DNA from: Pegea sp. RAD2-039
Taxonomy: Eukaryota; Chordata; Thaliacea; Salpida; Salpidae
Length of the DNA: 64,000 bases
NCBI GenBank assembly: GCA_034620365.1
Contig: JAQGEQ010000179.1
Location: 496,001-560,000 of the forward strand
Reading direction: 5' to 3'
Shown: positions 32,241 through 64,000 of the stretch, piece after piece
Layout: every line of letters begins with the position of its first letter
Numbering within the stretch: the first letter of the stretch is position 1
Notes under the pieces: generated by a model
What the model was told of the DNA's origin: nothing
What the model saw: the letters and a program-made list of their open reading frames with translations, nothing else
Database searches by the model: none
Program-made: the position numbers and the translations under genes

Positions 32241-35200
32241 CGCTATATACTTAAAGTATCATTGGCTGCAAAAGAAAATGATTATTATATAACAGCTGAC
32301 TAGCTTATCATTATAATTTATTCAATCTAAAATTTATATTAAACAGATTTTGGCATATAAAAAAAGCATATTTTTGAAATCATTAAAAAATAGTAGAAAA
32401 AGTTATGCTGGAATTTCTACTAAAATCACCAGATTTTTACAATAAAAGTTAATTAATAAGATATAAGTAATATAAGAAAAGTTAAAAAGAAAGAGTAAAA
32501 AAACAAGTTAGGTAGATTAAAATTGTGGAGTAACAAAATTGAAAGCTAAAAAATAATGTTGACAACATACAACTAAAAGATGAAACAGGGAAATATTAAA
32601 CAATATAGTATTTAAGTTTTAATATATATCAAAAAATTAATTCAAAATTTTCTACTTGTTTATACAATTGAAATTCATATTTCTAGTGTCTAAAAGTCAT
32701 TAGAATAGATTGATATTTTAGAACTAAAGATTAGTTCATAAATCAATTCCTTTTTATTAGTTTAAATAAGTTTGAGGTTTGTTAAATATATGAAATATTA
32801 TAAATAATAAAAAATTAAAGTACACGAATACAATTATATATAATTCAAATAATGTTTAAGCCAGTTGAAAAATTCATACAAAATCATTCTTTAGTAGAAA
32901 TATCATATTATTAAAACATATATTTAAACAAATGTAACAAAATATTATTTTGAGCAAAAACATGTTAATTCAGAAACTGTTGTTTCATTCTTAAAGTTCA
33001 AAAATGTATTCTTGTACCTTAGAAGATAACTTGTCATTAAAAAAGCTTTAAGATGAACACAAATTTGCATATAGTAAAAAAGTACCATGGAATGCTAATT
33101 GTTTAAAATGGTTAATTAAGTAAAATTAAATTAGTAAAATACAAACAAACAAATTTGTAAAAAAAAGTAGTTTGAATAAATTTAGTTTAAAAATATTAAT
33201 TTTAAAAAAATGTTAAAACCATTCATTCACTTATAAAATTACGATTATAAATACTTCTTAATAATTCTTAATATACTATTTTAAAACCAGCATTACTAAT
33301 ATTATAGGGAGTGAAGGATAAATTTCCGAAAAAAATTTTATTCATTATTCAGCATTAATAAAAGCGTTACACAAATTTATAAGCAAGTTTTATATAGTTT
33401 TTAGAAAATTGAACAAAACTGGAAAAAAAATCATGAAAAATACAATTCATACATGTGGATATGTCCTTATAACTACAAAAAATAAAAAGATAAAAATGAT
33501 AGTAGTCGTATAGCTTTAAGATACTTGATGTCTTTTCTTGCCTAAAAACAGATAAATTTCTATAATTAGATTTTGTATTTTTAAAGGTTCTAATGAAAAT
33601 AGTTTCTTTAAGTGAACAAAATTTATCATTTATCAGCATATACATTTCTTAGTAATTTTTTCATGTAAATCTTCTTTGCTTGTTTATTTTTCAAAACTTT
33701 CTGTTTACCAAATAGTGCATTTTTAATGCAGATTGATACCGAATGCTCAAACTAAAAAAAGGGGAGCCTTGTTTATGTGATAATATCAGATTATAATATA
33801 AAAAAGCAAAATATTATTTAAACTAAGAAAATAATACTGTCAGAACATCTAAACAATATAAATAATTAAGTTAGTCAAAGATATCTCACAACTTGTAATT
33901 TTTAATCTTTTTTAAAAAACTACCACAACTTATTACGTCTTGATAATGAAAATATTTACACCTTCATAACTTATTTATTTTTATTTATTACAATAAATGC
34001 GAAGGAGGGTGTCTGAAGAGAACACCTCTCGCTAACACACATTTTCACAAATAACATCTATTTAGTTAGAAATATAGAAAGAAAAGATGTAACACATGGC
34101 ATTTCGGTAGTCCTCAAAGCATATAACAGTGAAAATTACATAGAATTATAGTAATATTTAAAAAAAGGAAAAATTCACAGCTTAGAAATGACAATGTTGG
34201 CAATATTATAACGGTTCAACTTTTGCTTGAACAACGCGAGTGATTCTGGTATAACAATGTCTGATAGCAGTTGGTTCCATGTACTAATTGTACAGTATGA
34301 GAAACAATTTGCTCTGATTAATGTACCAGGTGATATGGGCTCAATATGATGTAATGTATGTCGTCTGAGTTGGTATAATTTGAGGGAAGGACTAATGGAA
34401 AAGAAATCATCAAACTAAATTAAATCGTGAATAATCTTAAAAATAAGAATTAAGTCGTATTTAATTCGTCGAATTTCCAAAGTATCTAAATTGAAGAATC
34501 TTAGACGATGTTTATAACTATCGTATGTAATTTAAGTTTCCTGCATACAAATCTTGTAGACGTCACCTGAACAGACTCAATTTTTTTGATATCACTAACT
34601 TGATATGGCATCTATGCACTAACATTGTATTCAACAATTGGATACTATATATTATTAATAATATATTGGAATAATATGTTTGGTAATAAATGTAAAGCCT
34701 TTATGTGAAGATTATTTTATATTTCTAAAGCAAATTGTTAATAAAACGTTAGATACTTTTTTGTAGGTAATCAAAAAACATTAATGTTACCTACATTATA
34801 GATATTTTATTTACCAGCTGCATAACGGTTTAGTTAAAACAAGCTTATAAATACTAATTCTGCTAAGTATAATTTAATCATTAGGATTAATTACCATAAC
34901 TAATTAAAAGATTCGGGTTCTCAGCTTTTAAAGTACCTATTAGTTTCCAAATTAAACGATTTAACACCTCGTGTTATGAACTTGTGGATATCTAGTTATT
35001 GTCAGCAATTGTATGCTACTAGTTACCTACCCCCATCATAATTCTTTTAATCAATTGGTTTACCATTTCGTATTCATATAAGCATACGAAAAAACGATGT
35101 AGAAGCTGCTATATCATCAAAAAAATGTCCAATGAATACTTATCAAAAATTTACTAGGATAAAAGTATTTTTTCCAATTTTTGAAATACTTGACCAGGTC

Positions 35201-36059: not shown

Positions 36060-39000
36060 TTAAACCTTTTTATCTGTTTTTCTAAGACTTCTTTTCCTTG
36101 TAAGCTTGATTTCATTTTCAACCTGTGGAGGATTTCTTAAGGGAGGTAAACTACGAGGTAGGCGATGGGCCACTTTGAAGCTTGTACTTAAAGCTGTCCC
36201 GTGGTCAAGAGTACTTCCAGTTTCAATTTCATAATTACTTTTACTTAATTGATCTTTAAGATCGTCATTTGAATGTTGTTGCATTGATGTTGTGAGAACT
36301 TGATTGTTTTTTTTATTTTCATCTCTTTTCAAGGTATCAGTATAGATATAAAAGTCGGAATCATAAAGATTTTCATCAGAACATCCTAACACTTGAATAG
36401 TTTTTTTCACATCTTCATTGATTGTAGCTTTACTTTGTTGGCTTTCTTTTCTTGCATAAATAATAGTTTCATCTTCATCATTTTCCATATCGCTCGGTTT
36501 TTCAGGTGATATAGAATATGGAGATGAAATTTCTGTTTCTTGAATTTCCCCGGTACAAGATAATTGTTTATTTTCTTTCTTGTAATTTTCTGTCTTAGAT
36601 GTTGGTTGGTTCACGATAGATGTCATAGTGAACAGTTGTTCTACATTTGGCGAAGCTTCAACGTCACTTGAATCTTTGATATTTGGATTAGACTCTCCGA
36701 TAGGTGATCTTCGGCCTTCCATTGACTCCACTCCTGTAAAGTTTGATAAAACTTTAACATTTCACCATACAGTTCTATATTAGTTTCAAATAAACGTTTA
36801 CAAAACTAAATGAGTGAGATAAACAAACTAGTTCATTTACCTGTTTATCCTCGTCATCTTAGTGATCTATTGAGTCTGTACTTTGTTATGAATCAAATTC
36901 TTAATTAATGATGAAGATGTTGACAGAAGCAATGAAAATTGATCAATTTTGACACACAAATAAAAATGACCGATAAAAGTATGTAAAACTTACTAACATT
37001 TCTACTTGGTGTAAAATACAATGAAAACAAGGCAATATTGAAATAAGTTCCTTTCTACAACTTTGAGAAATTTTTCATTGTTAGTAAAATAAATTGATGA
37101 TGATAAAATAAGCTCTAAATCTTGTAAGATTGTAAGAACAATAATACCCTATTTTTATATAGAAATGATGTATTTTTTATAATAATTTAAAAGCTAAAAT
37201 TCAACCTTTTAAAAAAGTTTTATCATAGCTTATATTGTTCACAGGAAGGATTTATTATTATAGAAAAAAGCTTTTTACTTTATACAAAAATACGTATGAA
37301 ATAATGTGAAAATAAAGCAATAAAAATAAGCGTAAAAAATATAAATTCATTAAAAAATACTGTATATAAGATATTACCAACAAAGGTAGAAGATGAACTA
37401 ATGATGATGTTTAAAAATGATTTGAAATCATTTTTTCAATCTAATTTCAATGAAGATGATGAGTCAGTTTGATCTTGTTCGAACGCAGCATTTTGCAGAG
37501 TGTCAAGCGTAGGAGTAACTTTACCTTTATCACCGCTTAAATATCCTTTCTTTTTAAGCCATACCAACAAGAGAGAAAAGACAGCTCCTAATAGCGCTAG
37601 AAGTGAGGCAATTACAGAAGTGAGATCCATTTTTTCACTTTCATCACTGTCTATAGTAAATTGTTTTTAAATAAATAAAGAAACAAATGAATTAAGTTAT
37701 ATCTTTAGAGTAACATAAAATCTAAATTGCTTGATTTACAGTAATCATGAGAAAGAATTTAAAAAGAAAAAATATGGTATACAATTTTGAGATAACTTAC
37801 CTTCAATGTTTGTGAAAACATTTGATGCATTGAAAACTTCTGATGTATTTGTAACTGACATGTTTTTAGTATCATCACTAATTGGTGACTGTGTAGAGTT
37901 TAATGTTCGAGAAATAGTAAGCTCCGTGGTGCTTTTTGATTTTAGTAAAACATCGAAATCTGTTGAATGCGTTGACCCCAATGTATTTGTTATTTCTGAT
38001 GTATTTGGTTCTTGTGTTGTTGTTTCTGATGTATTTGGTTCTTGTGTTGTTGTTTCTGATGTATTTGGTTTTTGTGTTGTTGTTTCTGATGTATTTGGTT
38101 CTTGTGTTGTTGTTTCTGATGTATTTGGTTCTTGTGTTGTTGTTTCTGATGTATTTGGTTTTTGTGTTGTTGTTTCTGGTGCAACAGGTGAAACGATTGT
38201 AGTTTCTGGAGTATTTGTACTGTTTGTTGTTGCTACTGGTGTTTTTGTTGGTGTAATTGGTTCTTCTGTTATTGTTGATTCTTGTGTTGTTGTAGTTTGT
38301 ATTTCTGTTTGTGCTTGTGTTGTTGCTATTATTGGTGTTTGTGTTGTTGCTTCTATGATAGTTGTGTCTTCCTTTGCAGTTGTAGCCAATGCAGTTGTTG
38401 TTGTTGGTTCCAAAGCTGAAAGTAAATTTTGTAAGATATGAATTGACTGCTCTTTAAATTTAGTTTTTACATATTTCACAAGTAGGCCCGGTGTACTTGG
38501 GATGACAGACACAAGTAAAATGTCCCAGATGATCCTCACAAACTCCATAGTTTTTACAAGGACTCGATTCACACTCATCAATTTCTGATTTTAAAACACG
38601 ACAAAATAGCAAGTAGAAATTAAATTGATTGAATCATCAAATTAACAAATTTTAATTAGGGTTATTAAATTATTTTCATCAAATCATGATTATGTTTTGA
38701 GAAAAAAGACAATTTTTAATTTTTCTTTGTTTTAATGATGATAATCTACTCGATCATATTTAAAGAACAAAATTTACTAACAATATACCGGATGGTGAGT
38801 TTGAGTTAAAAATTAGAATAAAAAACTAACCAATACTACAATCCCAACCAGTATAACCATCTGGACAGATACATTCAAATGAATTTATTCGATCGATGCA
38901 AACAGCATCATTTTTACAAGGTTCCACTTTGCATTCATCAATATCTATTCAAAAGAGAAATAAGAAACTGTTTTATGTGAATGAACTCTTCAAGGTAGAG

Positions 39001-52853: not shown

Positions 52854-55800
52854 ATGACTGACTTAAGAGGTATGTATGTTTATTTCATATTTATTATTAA
52901 TATAAAAATATATTAATTGTTATTATGGTAGATTTTTTCAAGAAAACTCATAAGTAATTATTATTTAATCTTATATAGGGTCTGTCCCACCTTATTATAG
53001 AGATGTATATGATGTTCTATGTCCTGATAATAGTGAAGCAATCTCACAAACAATTTTAACAAACTTATTGGTCAAGTCCAAATTAGAAAAGGCTACATTG
53101 AGTCAGGTAAATAGAACAAGTTTTTAAACCATTTAAAGTTTATTTCTAGTTATTTAAAATGTATACTATATTTTAATTCTTTGTTTTAATATATCTCTGT
53201 TTTATAACCCATCATTTTAGACTATTCTTACTTTATTAGATTTGGAGTCTTCTAGATATAAAAAATGGAACAATTAATCGCAGTAATTTGTACAAAGCTC
53301 TTGCATTAGTTGCTTTTGCTCAAAGTGGGAAATCAGTTAGTGACAAGCTTCTAGAGAATTTTTCTGGAGAAGGTTTTTAATAATGATTTTTTTATTTTAA
53401 TTTCATGAAGATTTCAAAGAAACTTTATTAAAAGAATCATTCAATGCTTTAAATATAAACATTTTTATGTGTGATTTAGAGTTAACATTCGTTTGAAGAT
53501 TTTTCTCTAATTTTCTTTGTTTACTTTTTTGTTATTTTTTTCAGCAATTAGTAAAATATCATTTCTCTTTTTACTCAAAAAATCTTTGTACAATTAGCTT
53601 CTAATTCTAGAAAATTTGCTTCATTTATTCAACAGCATGTTTAGTTTGAAGTTGTTTGCTTTAGTAATTGTTTAATTTAATTTATATACAGAGCTTCCAC
53701 GCCCGGATTTAGGAGATGTAGAATCCATGAAGAGCTTACTACGACAAGAACAATCATCACCCACTAAGTTAAATCATTCTTATCAAGAAATGTGCAACTT
53801 TGATTCCATACAAGTATCGTTGGTTCCAGAAAAGAAAGGAATTTTCTTGAAACATGTTGAATATGAAGTTTCTAGTCAGGTAAATTATCAGCAGCAACTT
53901 TTTACTTGATTATAATAATCAATTTAAATAACTTTATAAAATATCTCAAAATTGAAGCTTAAACATTTAATTTCATTCTTATAACAATATAAACTGCTAC
54001 AGGAAATTCTTAAGTCGACTAATTGTTTTGTAGAGACATAATTCAAACGTAAAACGTCGCTACAACGATTTTCTGGCCTTCTATGATATTTTACAACAGT
54101 TGTTTCCATACAGAATGATACCAAAACTTCCACCTAAAAAAGTGATGTTAAATTGTAAGTAATTGTGTTTGTGTATCTCAACAATTTATTGATTTTCAAT
54201 TTGATACTTTATCTTAAGTATTGATTATTTTGTTGTCAACTCAAGTAGCCATTATATTGGCTTTCATGTTGTAACTTATCAAAATCAATTTTCTGATCTT
54301 CTAATTGATACGATGAATATTTTCTATCAAAGTTTGCTTCTTTTCTAGTTTGAATTTACTATTTTTTCAACGAGTTTTTACAAAATCATTCGTATAGAAG
54401 ATATATTATTAAATCTATTTTTCCTGTCCTCATATCAAGGTAGTCGCCCGAGGCTTTGTCAGTATAATCATAAGAATTTACTTGAAGCTCGTAAAATGGT
54501 TTAATTTTGCATCTGACTTTTATTGGCAGCTGATAGAGATTTTATTGAAGCCAGAAGGAAATCTCTGCGTCGATTCCTCAAAATCTTAAGTCGTCATCCG
54601 GCGATCTATGACAGTCAAGTCTTACAATTCTTTCTCACACATAACGGAGTAAGTTTCTAACTTATAAGCTTCAGTAGAATTTGTTTAAATGAAATAATTA
54701 AAAAGTTCTATAAAAAGTACAAATTTAATTTTGTTTTTGAAAATTGTGTTCTGAAATGCAGCAAGGTAGGAAAGATTTCGTTAATTATTTTCTACTTTGT
54801 TTGAAAGGTTTGAATGAAAACATTTTATTGTAAATATTTACTAATAAATTCCACTGTTTATAACTGCAGTAATAAAACCTCTGTGCTGCTATTAATAAGC
54901 ATGCCAGTTTTTTCTTAAAATGTTTTTTTGCATGAATTATAAAATCTAACAAATTTCATTTCAAACTTATAAGTGTTGCCTTTCAAAAAATTAGTCTTTA
55001 TCGAAACCAAACTCTCCTCTGATTGGTTACTTACTTTATGCTTCAGTAAACACGTACTTGCTGTATACAGGAAGTCGTCAACAAAATTAAAGAGCAATTC
55101 CGTGGTGCACCAGATGAGTTTTTCACCAGTGATTTGGCTGCTAATGCAAAGGTTTCTTTGCTATTTATGTTTAAATAAAAAACTTTTTATTTTCCTAAAT
55201 TTCATTAATTATCAAACAATATTTTCACCCAGGATTTGGTCTCACCTGAAACTCAATCAAACTTTGCAGCTAGCAAAGAACAGATTAGGCAGCTGAGTAA
55301 TCATGTTCACAAGCTGCGCGACATCACCACAAGAGTTGCTGAAAGAAGTTCGGGAAACTCAAGTGATATGATGAATTTCGGAAAAGAATTAATGTAAGTA
55401 ACAACTTCAAAAACATTTCTTCAAATTACAAATCAAATTTGGTTTTTAAATAATCACTAAATAATTTTCAAATTCTTTTATTTTTAATATCGATGACATT
55501 TTTCTGTGATCGACTTTATCCTACATATTTGATAGAATTTATGAAATATAAAAAGAAGAACTTAAAGGTTATAAGTATCACTGGAATAATTGGTGTAAAC
55601 ATCATGCTTAGGTCCTCTCATATTTCTTGTGCTATACACCAGAAAGTGTTTTTCTTTCATGATAAAGTAAATAAAATGATCTATCAAAGAATTAACAAAT
55701 TTTGGGAATTAAATCAAGAAATAATTGAGTTTTTATTACTTGGTATAAAAGTCACATTTCCTCCAAATTTTTTTCCAACAATTGCATTCCATGGACCACC

Positions 55801-57710
55801 GTACTTATCATCTAATGTAGTCTTCACATATTCAGCTATTTCCTTATCCGTCTAATGCCATAAAATGTTAAAAGTTATTTATAACTTTTCAAATTTTATT
55901 CTAAAAGTGTTTTCAGCCATCAAATTATTCAAATACTTTACTTCACAAATTTTCAGTCCTACTTTAGCAAGATGGAGTATTTCTTTTTCCAATTTCTTCC
56001 CTATATCTTTAATTTCAATTTTTGTTTTACTTTTTCTCTACCAGCAAAAAAACAACTTTGTAAATATTTCACAAAAAGTTGAAAATCAATTTGACACTTA
56101 CCAACATATTTGCAAGTTGAATAGATTTTCAGCAAATTCTGTTGTAGCTGTTTATTTGCTTTTATTGTTTATGACGTAATATTAATAAATAAATTGTCAA
56201 ACTGAAATTTCATTCATAAAATTCATTTCTGGTCATTTAAATACAATTCAATTTGAAGCTTAATATTTGTTTTAATATTTATTGAAAAACTTACATTAAA
56301 GTCATCCTTTCCTGTTTCTTGATGTTTGATTCGTAAGCAATTTTGTTCTTGAAGTTTTTATAAAACTGAAATACGAATAAAATGTTCAATTAATTAATTT
56401 GTTGTTTCAACTTTGAAACATTTATTTTTATTTTAGAGCTATTGGCAACGATACTTCAGTTGCTTCTCAATGGGCAACAGGCGGTAACTGCATCATCAAT
56501 AATCTCAAAAAATCCTTTAGAAGTTTGTCTGTTGAGTTTTCTTCTATTTCGGAAAAGCATTCCTTACAAGTTAGTAACTTTGTATAAAATTTCTTATCTT
56601 TTATCTTATTATTATCTTATTAATAGAACAAACGTGAAGAGGAAGGAGTAGTTGATCAACTGAACGTGCTGCACGACCTGCTACAAGCTTACCAGGTTTC
56701 ATTTACAACTTACTGACATTTTCAGCTTTCAATTGATCAATTTGTCACATGACACCACTACATGCTACTACTAGCTTCAATCTTCTTATTTCAATTTAGG
56801 ATTTATGTGATCGTCATGAAAGAGGAGTTTTGAAGGAGCATCATTACGCTTTGAAGAAGTATGGAGCCATGAAAACTAAAAGGATGGCAGCTACCATCGC
56901 AAATATGGAACAGGTAGAAGATTTTGCCAACTTTAATAACTCTCAAATTCAAATTTTATTTTTTGTTTTTTAGCAAGGTGTTGATAAAATGGAATCAAAA
57001 ATACAAGCTGTGAGGGTTTCGTTCAAATATTTCTGATTTAGTTGTTAAATCTCTCTTGATAATTCCAGGCTTATCTTCAACTTATATAAACTTTTATTTT
57101 TTGGCTTGCTAGCAAGAAAATGAAATTGCGACTAGAGAATGTCGGAATTACTTCTCACTTCATTGTATTCATTTGGAAACTCAACTTGTGTATTTGAACA
57201 TGGAAATTTTAGCAGATGTACTCACCACCCTAGTTGCTACTCAGATGAAGGGGCATGATGAGGTAGAAAAACGTCACTGTTGCTAGTTTCAATTTGTTGT
57301 TATCGTTGTTGTTAGAATTTGTTTGTAAGTTTGATTGGTTGCTGAAAAAGGTTTTAGATGACTGAACTTTTGTTGAATGGTTGAAAATAAGTTGCTGAAA
57401 GTTTAAAGGAGAAAAATCGCTAATCGAAGTTATTTGAAGAATTTTTGTCTGCTTCATGATTTTTTGAATATTCAAAAGAGCTATAGATATATTCTTTTTA
57501 GCTTCAAATATGTCTTTTATCAAACTAAAGTTGAAGATGATGTAAATATCGAATAAAAAAATCTTTTGTAATTCTTCTTTCACAAAAGTTCACGAGATAT
57601 AAACCTAAGTCGAAATTTGTTATTTGCAGATGGCTATTCTATGGAAGGAACTTGCACCTAGGGTAACTGATCTTCTTCCAAAAGATTCAAAAAGCAACGG
57701 ATCTATTTAG
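52854..57710 (+). CDS. SNX8: Sorting nexin 8 (SNX8/Mvp1) with N-terminal EH domain, 14 exons
   Basis: SNX8/Mvp1 is an endosomal PX-BAR sorting nexin that binds phosphoinositides and forms recycling tubules. The model has 509 residues. Exons: 52854-52869, 52979-53106, 53240-53372, 53692-53879, 54034-54154, 54530-54648, 55071-55151, 55233-55393, 56437-56569, 56627-56695, 56800-56913, 56974-57009, 57113-57262, 57630-57710. Residues about 9-93 form an EH domain: YYRDVYDVLCPDNS, KATLSQIWSLLDIKNGTINR, LYKALALVAFAQSG. The PX domain (about 130-235) has VPEKKGIFLKHVEYEVSS, RRYNDFLAFYDIL, FPYRMIPKLPPKK, DRDFIEARRKSLRRF. The BAR region follows: NFGKELM, SFRSLSVEFSSIS, YKDLCDRHERGVL-type sequence (here YQDLCDRHERGVL), RNYFSLHCIHLETQLVYL. 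The exon 3 acceptor at 53239 keeps the EH frame; the earlier AG at 53220 does not. Intron 8 carries a dynein light chain gene on the other strand. Confidence 0.97.
55562..56107 (-). CDS. LC8-type dynein light chain nested in SNX8 intron 8
   Basis: Four minus-strand exons, 56102-56107, 55942-56037, 55740-55851 and 55562-55680, join in frame to 110 residues. Each intron has GT and AG ends (GTAAGT, GTAAAG, GTAATA donors; GGTAG, ATTAG, GATAG acceptors). Features of the LC8/DYNLL fold: helix KKLEKEILHLAKVGLKI, helix TDKEIAEYVKTTLDDKYGG, then PWNAIVGKKFGGNVTF and the strand HFIYFIMKEKHFLVYST, matching the family order helix, DKKY, W-x-x-IVG, FG, HFIYF. LC8 dimers bind dynein intermediate chains and many short-linear-motif partners. 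The C-terminus runs about 20 residues past the usual end. The start is least sure: the first exon encodes only Met-Leu, and an upstream minus-strand exon-like piece (56295-56365), with good splice sites, may be 5' leader. It is divergent from canonical LC8, so one of the family's paralogues. Confidence 0.85.
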
Positions 57711-61600: not shown

Positions 61601-64000
61601 AGAAACAAACTAAAGGAGTTTGAACATTTTTTGAAACAAATTTAATCTTTTATGAAATAAGAGCACATTCTTGTCAGCTCAACAAATTGCTGATGATCAT
61701 TGAAAGATGTTTTTATTTCTAATAACTTAATTTGCATAATTTTAACTAACACCATCATCAATACAGCTGCCTCCGTTTTTACAATAATTTGCATCACATC
61801 TGTTTTCACTTGACTGGCAACGAATACCTCCAAAGTTAGCAGCACAAGAGCAACTAAGAAAGTCATAAATAAATCTTTTATATCAAACTAAACCCAGCAA
61901 TTAAAAATAAAATCTTTAATTTAAAAAAAAAATTCTTCCTGTTATTAAAAAGTTATAAATGAAAAATAACCTAAAAGCATTGACTAAATCAATACAAGTA
62001 GCTCCATTGAAACAAGGATTTGAGACACATTCATCAACTTTCTCCTCACATAGGTTACCTGTGAGTAAAAATAAATGAAGATAGTTGTTTTTGAGTTGAA
62101 GAAGAGACCTGTGAAGCCAGCAACACAAGAACATTGAAATGAATTTCTTCCATCTATACATACAGCTCCATTCTGACAAGGGTTACTCAGACATTCATTA
62201 ACATTTATCTCACACCTAACTCCCGAAAAACCATTTGAACATTCACAAATGAAACTAAAAAGTCAAACTTTAGATAAGATAAACATTAAAAAAAACAATT
62301 TGGCAGAAGATTTCTTTTAATATATATTAAATAATTTTTGATGTTTAATAAAATATTTTATAATAATAAATTTGTGAAATATAATTTAACTTCATTAGCA
62401 AATTACATGATAAATATGTGCTCAAAACCTGTTTTCACCATCCACACATGTAGCTCCATTATAGCATGGTAGTAATGAGCATTCATTCAAGTTATTTTCA
62501 CATAGTCTGCCATAAAATCCTGGTGAACACCAACACTTAAATTCAGTAAAAAACTTTTCACAGGTAGCTCCGTTTTTACAAGGATTACTTGAACATTCAT
62601 CTTTATCTATCTAATAAGTAAAAACCAAAATTAATTTCAAATTAGTTATGATTTTTTTTGAATTACTAACCTCACAATTATTACCAGAAAAACCATTAGT
62701 GCAATGGCACTCGTAAGAGCCAATTTCTTCCAGACATGTGCCCCCGTTTTTACACGGATTGCTTGAATAGAAGAATTTTAGATGCTAACACTTATCAGTT
62801 ATTTTATATATGTTACTTAATTATTTGATAAACAAATTAATCTTTTGAAACTATTTTTGAAATTAGTTTCAAGTTGAAAAAAATGTTGTAATGTTTTTAA
62901 AATGTTATAAAACTATTCATTTGCATTCTATTCTTTTCGCTTCACTTCATCTAATCATATTGGCATAGCTTAGTTTTTGAATAGCTGAAATTACTACTAT
63001 GGTAGTTAGCTACCTAAAAACTTCCTATTTATTTTCTGAATCTTTTATATTTTTCTATTTTTGATCTACTATAAACATTCTTTGTATATTGAAAATAATT
63101 ATTTAAACAATTCAAACAAAAAATAAAAACATTTTATCAATGGGTCATTACCTTAAACACTCATTTATATCCTCTTCACAGTTGACACCATCAAATCCAT
63201 TTAAACATTTACACTCATAACTATTGATGAGGTTTTTACATTCACCACTATTCACACATGGATTTGAACTGCATTCATCAATATCTTCAGCACATGTATT
63301 GCCAGTGTAACCATCAACACACAAACAAGCGAATTCGCTAATTCCATCTCTAAAAAAAATTAAAATACTAAATTTAATTGGTTTATGAAAAGATGTGGTC
63401 GTTTAAGATGTTATGAAGAAATGTAAGAGTAAACTAGATCCAGTTCACAACAACAATTTAGCGATGAATTGTCTAAGACTTACACACAAGTGCCGCCGTT
63501 TTTACAAGCGTCATTTCGGCAATCATTTCTATTTCTTTCACAAGTTTCACCGATAAATCCTCTAATACAACGACATCTAAAAGAAAGTTTAAAAAATCTT
63601 ATTCTTTCAGGTGATAATAGGTTTTTATCAAAGTAGTTTCTACTAACTCAAATTTATTTATTCCTTTCTCCATACATGTACCCCCGTTTTGACAAGGAGA
63701 ACTAAAACACTCGTCTATATCGAATTCACAATTGAGACCTTCAGTTCCATCCCTTTTCAAAGGAAGTTTAGGTTTAATTTAGTTTCTACAACATCAAATA
63801 AATGAACTTTTATTTATTTTGCAAGTAAATGTCTGTTCCAACACGACTGATTTTGCATCTAAACTACTTACTTGCAGCTGCATGAGTATCCGTTTATCAA
63901 ATCACTGCAAACACCTTCATTCAAACAAGGGGAACTCGAACACTCATCAAAGTTTAACTCGCAATGTTTCCCAACAAAGCCAGGTTTACAATCACACCAA
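58631..64000 (-). CDS. Multi-EGF type I membrane protein, 3' part (5' end outside window)
   Basis: Eighteen exons are visible, 758 codons plus one base, all phases consistent, running off the window at 64000. After a partial repeat come eleven complete EGF domains, several of calcium-binding type ([41 protein letters not shown]). The last ([17 protein letters not shown]...GYIGQFCE) leads directly into one transmembrane helix ([26 protein letters not shown], exon 60931-61108) and the stop-transfer RRLKRK. The tail is about 290 residues, with NNNTNNNPP, many Ser and basic clusters ([19 protein letters not shown]) and the end TGEIIE. No ankyrin repeats, Lin-Notch repeats or laminin G domains are seen, so it is not Notch, and the tail does not end in the ERLI motif of Crumbs. 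A Notch ligand (Delta or Serrate type) or another EGF-array adhesion protein remains possible; a DSL domain would lie outside the window. Confidence 0.92.

Follow-up and report, generated by a model that had tools for sequence, protein, structure and literature searches.

A predicted intron-bearing LC8-type dynein light chain gene antisense within intron 8 of an SNX8-like gene in Pegea sp. RAD2-039

The largest intron of an SNX8-like gene of Pegea sp. RAD2-039 holds, on its opposite strand, a sequence resembling a small dynein light chain. The locus raises the questions of whether this sequence is a gene in its own right, what kind of protein it would encode and how it came to lie in the intron. 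The window, i.e., the whole stretch of DNA that was analysed, has a length of 64,000 nucleotides. On the evidence of the sequence, the nested LC8-like stretch is very probably a real gene. The reading to which we assign a high likelihood is that of a protein-coding, diverged LC8-type dynein light chain gene with a putative promoter of its own, oriented opposite to SNX8 and ending inside intron 8.

The host gene was modelled by hand, with 14 exons and 13 introns, and all 13 introns have GT-AG borders. The host features are the following:

52854..57710, plus strand: SNX8-like host gene, 14 coding exons, 509 aa; PX (3e-21), Snx8_BAR_dom (2.8e-11) and EH (1.8e-07) domains.
55394..56436, plus strand: SNX8 intron 8, GTAAGTAA...TTTTAG, phase 2, 1043 bp.

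The host product carries both the PX domain and the Snx8/Mvp1 BAR domain by which SNX8/Mvp1 sorting nexins are recognized. The Snx8_BAR match (residues 250-459) extends across the splice junction of intron 8, which follows codon 315, and the intron is therefore internal to one domain. With 1043 bp it is the largest intron of the host, the other 12 ranging from 57 to 422 bp. The predicted coding region of the nested gene (56107-55562) lies wholly within the intron, in agreement with the preliminary description, which had placed a dynein light chain gene antisense in intron 8 of SNX8.

Read directly on the minus strand, the nested gene runs exactly from ATG to stop at 56107-55562. Its spliced coding sequence of 333 nt corresponds to 110 codons plus the stop, distributed over four exons of 6, 96, 112 and 119 nt. 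The three introns, of 64, 90 and 59 bp, all have GT-AG borders and show phases 0, 0 and 1; the four-exon, intron-bearing minus-strand gene described previously was thus recovered. Its features are as follows:

56102..56107, minus strand: predicted coding exon 1 (Met-Leu), ATGTTG followed by GTAAGTGT; donor at percentile 85.2 of GT sites.
55942..56037, minus strand: coding exon 2 (residues 3-34), open frame with GT-AG borders; donor selected by a homology gain of 10.3 bits.
55740..55851, minus strand: coding exon 3 (LC8 helix 2 and strand core); taken alone, its stop-to-stop frame gives a Dynein_light match at 5.9e-11, and the exon was also detected in the six-frame search.
55562..55680, minus strand: coding exon 4 (stop and C-terminal tail); HFIYF strand matching LC8 in the spliced alignments.
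55477..55488, minus strand: candidate poly(A) signals ATTAAA/AATAAA (first bases 55488 and 55482), motif matches 74 and 80 nt past the stop.

The exon 4 frame, taken alone, gave no Pfam match at 0.01. The candidate poly(A) signals fall inside host intron 8 and are likely to be chance matches in AT-rich DNA.

A splice form of 103 residues, using a donor at 55962 for exon 2, was considered and set aside. It scored 67.5 bits against the Pfam profile versus 77.8 bits for the 110-residue form, a loss of 10.3 bits, and left a seven-residue gap in helix 1 when aligned to the yeast Dyn2 chain. The form of 110 residues is preferred as the predicted product; this choice is one of homology alone, because the rejected donor scored slightly higher than the chosen one in the splice-site weight matrix (5.5 versus 5.33).

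The family of the product was assessed by profile, structure and genome comparisons. The predicted protein matched the Pfam family Dynein_light (PF01221) with an E value of 8.2e-22 and 77.8 bits (cut-off 29.1), over profile positions 2-85 of 86, so that 84 of the 86 positions, and thus the whole domain, were covered. In a search of PDB sequences the 110-residue form aligned without gaps to the yeast Dyn2 chain (best E value 3.4e-15). The best alignment, with 7n9f_o, placed residues 4-89 on chain residues 6-91, without gaps. At an E value of 1e-6 or better, 34 distinct PDB sequences were obtained, each of them named dynein light chain or Dyn2. The protein resembles the LC8/DYNLL group (PF01221; yeast Dyn2; animal DYNLL1/2) in that 84 residues align gapless to the canonical LC8 of its own genome (z 23.2, 200 shuffles) and in the retention of Trp54, Gly59, Phe62, Gly63, Val66, Thr67, Phe73, Tyr75 and Phe76 (LC8 numbering, which is the nested residue number minus one). 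On the other hand, it differs from canonical LC8 in having only 26 of these 84 residues identical, in its own intron positions, in a tail of 20 residues past the usual LC8 end, and in the replacements Tyr65 to Asn, Tyr77 to Ile, His68 to Phe and His55 to Asn. Both the assignment to the LC8 family and the description as a divergent paralogue with an extended C-terminus, already proposed in the preliminary description, are borne out by these data.

LC8-type light chains are characterized by homodimers formed through beta-strand exchange and by binding to the dynein intermediate chain. His55 is important for the LC8 dimer. The peptide groove of LC8 is lined by Phe62, Tyr65, Phe73, Tyr75 and Tyr77, and His68 contacts the peptide, according to the part of PMC3078936 cited here. 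Three of these five groove aromatics are kept in the nested protein (Phe62, Phe73 and Tyr75), and the peptide-contacting histidine is lost. Binding of classic TQT peptides by the predicted protein is doubtful, and an LC8-like mode of working is not assured, because Tyr65, Tyr77 and His68 have been lost.

Other members of the family were searched for in the genome. A six-frame search with PF01221 gave five matches at four places: contigs C17, C39 and C20 (with two matches) and the nested gene. Read from their sequences, the C17 gene would be the canonical LC8, the C39 gene a DNAL4-like gene and the C20 gene a third paralogue. With the nested protein as query, the genome search recovered exons 2 to 4 of the nested gene itself together with the C17 and C39 genes; the C20 paralogue was absent from the matches even at an E value of 10. 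No second copy of the nested gene was found among the best candidates scored in the genome searches; a single copy is not proven by this, because only the best candidates were scored and the C20 gene was missed at E 10. A short C-terminal extension was observed in the C20 paralogue (L005 1453-1883).

In LC8 numbering, the introns of the nested gene lie after position 1, after position 33 and within codon 71. The coding region of the canonical LC8 gene is interrupted by a single intron, after codon 27. The part of the C20 paralogue that was read has an intron at LC8 position 44 and, by eye, another one upstream of the domain, and the DNAL4-like gene is intronless from ATG to stop. Among the positions read, none is common to the nested gene and the three paralogues, positions before the domain being poorly comparable.

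These intron positions bear on the origin of the nested gene, which is most likely an old LC8 duplicate that would have come to lie in the intron either by a DNA copy or by a retrocopy. The preliminary description had taken the presence of introns as an argument against a retrocopy; this argument was not established and is weak, because no position read is shared with the paralogues. The gene may derive from an LC8 mRNA that was retrocopied long ago into intron 8 of SNX8, its three introns being later gains; we regard this origin as tentative, and it is compatible with a working gene. It is favoured by the lack of any correspondence between the three nested introns and those of canonical LC8 or the C20 paralogue, and by the DNAL4-like gene, without an intron between ATG and stop; against it, three gains are many for such a small gene, and no clear insertion footprint was found. 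Among the direct repeats of 12-24 nt around the gene, one 12-nt pair (55520-55531 and 56101-56112; 11 of 12 positions alike) flanks most of the coding sequence. Pairs with 11 of 12 matches numbered 18 in the stretch versus a mean of 12.8 in 100 shuffles (range 2-40), and the pair is not evidence of an insertion because such pairs occur at chance level. An old DNA copy followed by intron turnover and an old retroposition followed by intron gain fit equally well.

Upstream of the ATG of exon 1 at 56107, in-frame TGA and TAA codons are present, and a first exon of two residues, as had been proposed, is likely as the simplest predicted start, although other readings of the sequence exist. One further stretch opens into exon 2:

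56295..56365, minus strand: possible alternative upstream exon (5' UTR or alternative N-terminus), 71 nt, preceded by ATTTCAG and followed by GTAAGTTT.

It is unlikely, but deserves consideration, that the two-residue exon 1 is not used and exons 2 to 4 are spliced to minus-strand exons (one or several) farther upstream, of which 56365-56295 may be one. The flanking ATTTCAG and GTAAGTTT agree with this arrangement, as does the finding that one of the three frames of the stretch is open into exon 2. However, a stop lies close to the beginning of this frame and is followed by no Met, so that another acceptor and a further exon would be needed; the two remaining frames meet stops in exon 2 or earlier, and the LC8 domain is already whole with the two-residue exon. 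The upstream stops support the two-residue first exon as proposed, and the open frame of 56365-56295 tells against taking it as settled.

The coding signal was compared with chance. Codon usage of the nested coding sequence scored +10.5 in frame versus -10.1 and -7.7 off frame, and a score as high was reached in 27 of 2000 shuffles; the training set comprised 1683 codons from the host gene and four long frames of the window, not all of them proven genes. Splice sites were scored with a small weight matrix trained on the 13 host introns only. By this matrix the three nested donors were placed at percentiles 81.5 to 91.7 of GT sites, the acceptor of intron 2 at 69.9 of AG sites and the two other acceptors at 99.7 and 99.5. 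Decay of an LC8 duplicate to a pseudogene still intact in appearance is very improbable: the divergence of the protein, the lost groove residues and the middling splice sites are in its favour, but the frame stays open in only 2 of 100,000 composition shuffles, the nine LC8 residues listed above are retained, and divergence as deep as 26 identities in 84 aligned residues, with no stop, frameshift or gap, is unlikely to arise without selection.

Simple ORF calling would miss the nested gene because its coding exons are short: the stop-to-stop frames containing exons 2, 3 and 4 have only 52, 45 and 48 codons. The claim that an ORF-based annotation would overlook the gene holds to this extent, and the long plus-strand frames over the locus, of 133 and 107 codons, had no Pfam match; it does not extend to a six-frame profile search, which still detected the gene at 43.1 bits, above the cut-off. 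The two plus-strand open stretches, 55454-55852 (133 codons) and 55856-56176 (107 codons), share one frame with a single stop between them and run antisense to the nested gene. An open length of 133 codons was attained in 3 of 2000 shuffles of intron 8, and these stretches are taken as the probable antisense shadow of the nested coding exons on a T-rich strand.

Under the preferred reading, that of a protein-coding diverged LC8-type gene, transcription would start from a putative promoter of its own, on the strand opposite to SNX8, and end within intron 8. The product would be expressed, fold as an LC8 dimer and serve in this form as a light chain or adaptor; owing to the altered groove and the tail, its partners may differ from those of canonical LC8. 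A functional link between the nested gene and SNX8 would not be needed. A more elaborate proposal, that of a lineage-specific LC8 paralogue with the dimer core, a re-specified groove and a new tail, long held antisense in SNX8 and affecting SNX8 expression or splicing, appears remote.

Nested genes make up 4.3-8.7% of the genes of seven vertebrates, most of them arise through young duplicates inserting into introns (section 3.1), and internal nested genes are typically intronless, as stated in the portion of PMC8467205 cited here. The predicted nested pair is ordinary in kind, nested intronic genes being common in animals. Like other opposite-strand intronic genes of animals, the gene is short and lies within the largest intron of a host with many exons; unlike the typical internal genes of that source, in the portion cited, it has three predicted introns. 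Among the literature matches listed, judged by titles and the beginnings of abstracts, no pair of a dynein light chain gene and an SNX8 intron was present. A search of viral_contigs for relatives of the nested gene gave 33 pattern stretches, none of which was confirmed. The genome itself yielded 71 homeodomain matches, versus matches in 0 of 14 control genomes, and this result and the domains of the host gene both indicate an animal. Searches for COX1 and for insect cuticle proteins yielded no match; the cuticle search was also negative in all controls, and neither result is informative on this point.

Other features were observed elsewhere in the window:

37748..38590, minus strand: 281-codon frame, rich in threonine and containing near-identical repeats; long frames are open on both strands.
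61919..63402, minus strand: exons with EGF-like repeats, recognized by eye, which suggest a Notch- or Crumbs-like gene.
34178..34414, minus strand: frame resembling, by eye, the C-terminal end of a non-LTR reverse transcriptase; at 0.01 it gave no match in Pfam.

In biological terms, the locus would add one further nested gene pair and one further diverged LC8 paralogue. More widely, comparison with related genomes may allow the nesting and the turnover of introns to be dated at this locus, and the predicted protein may serve to test the working of an LC8 dimer whose groove is changed.
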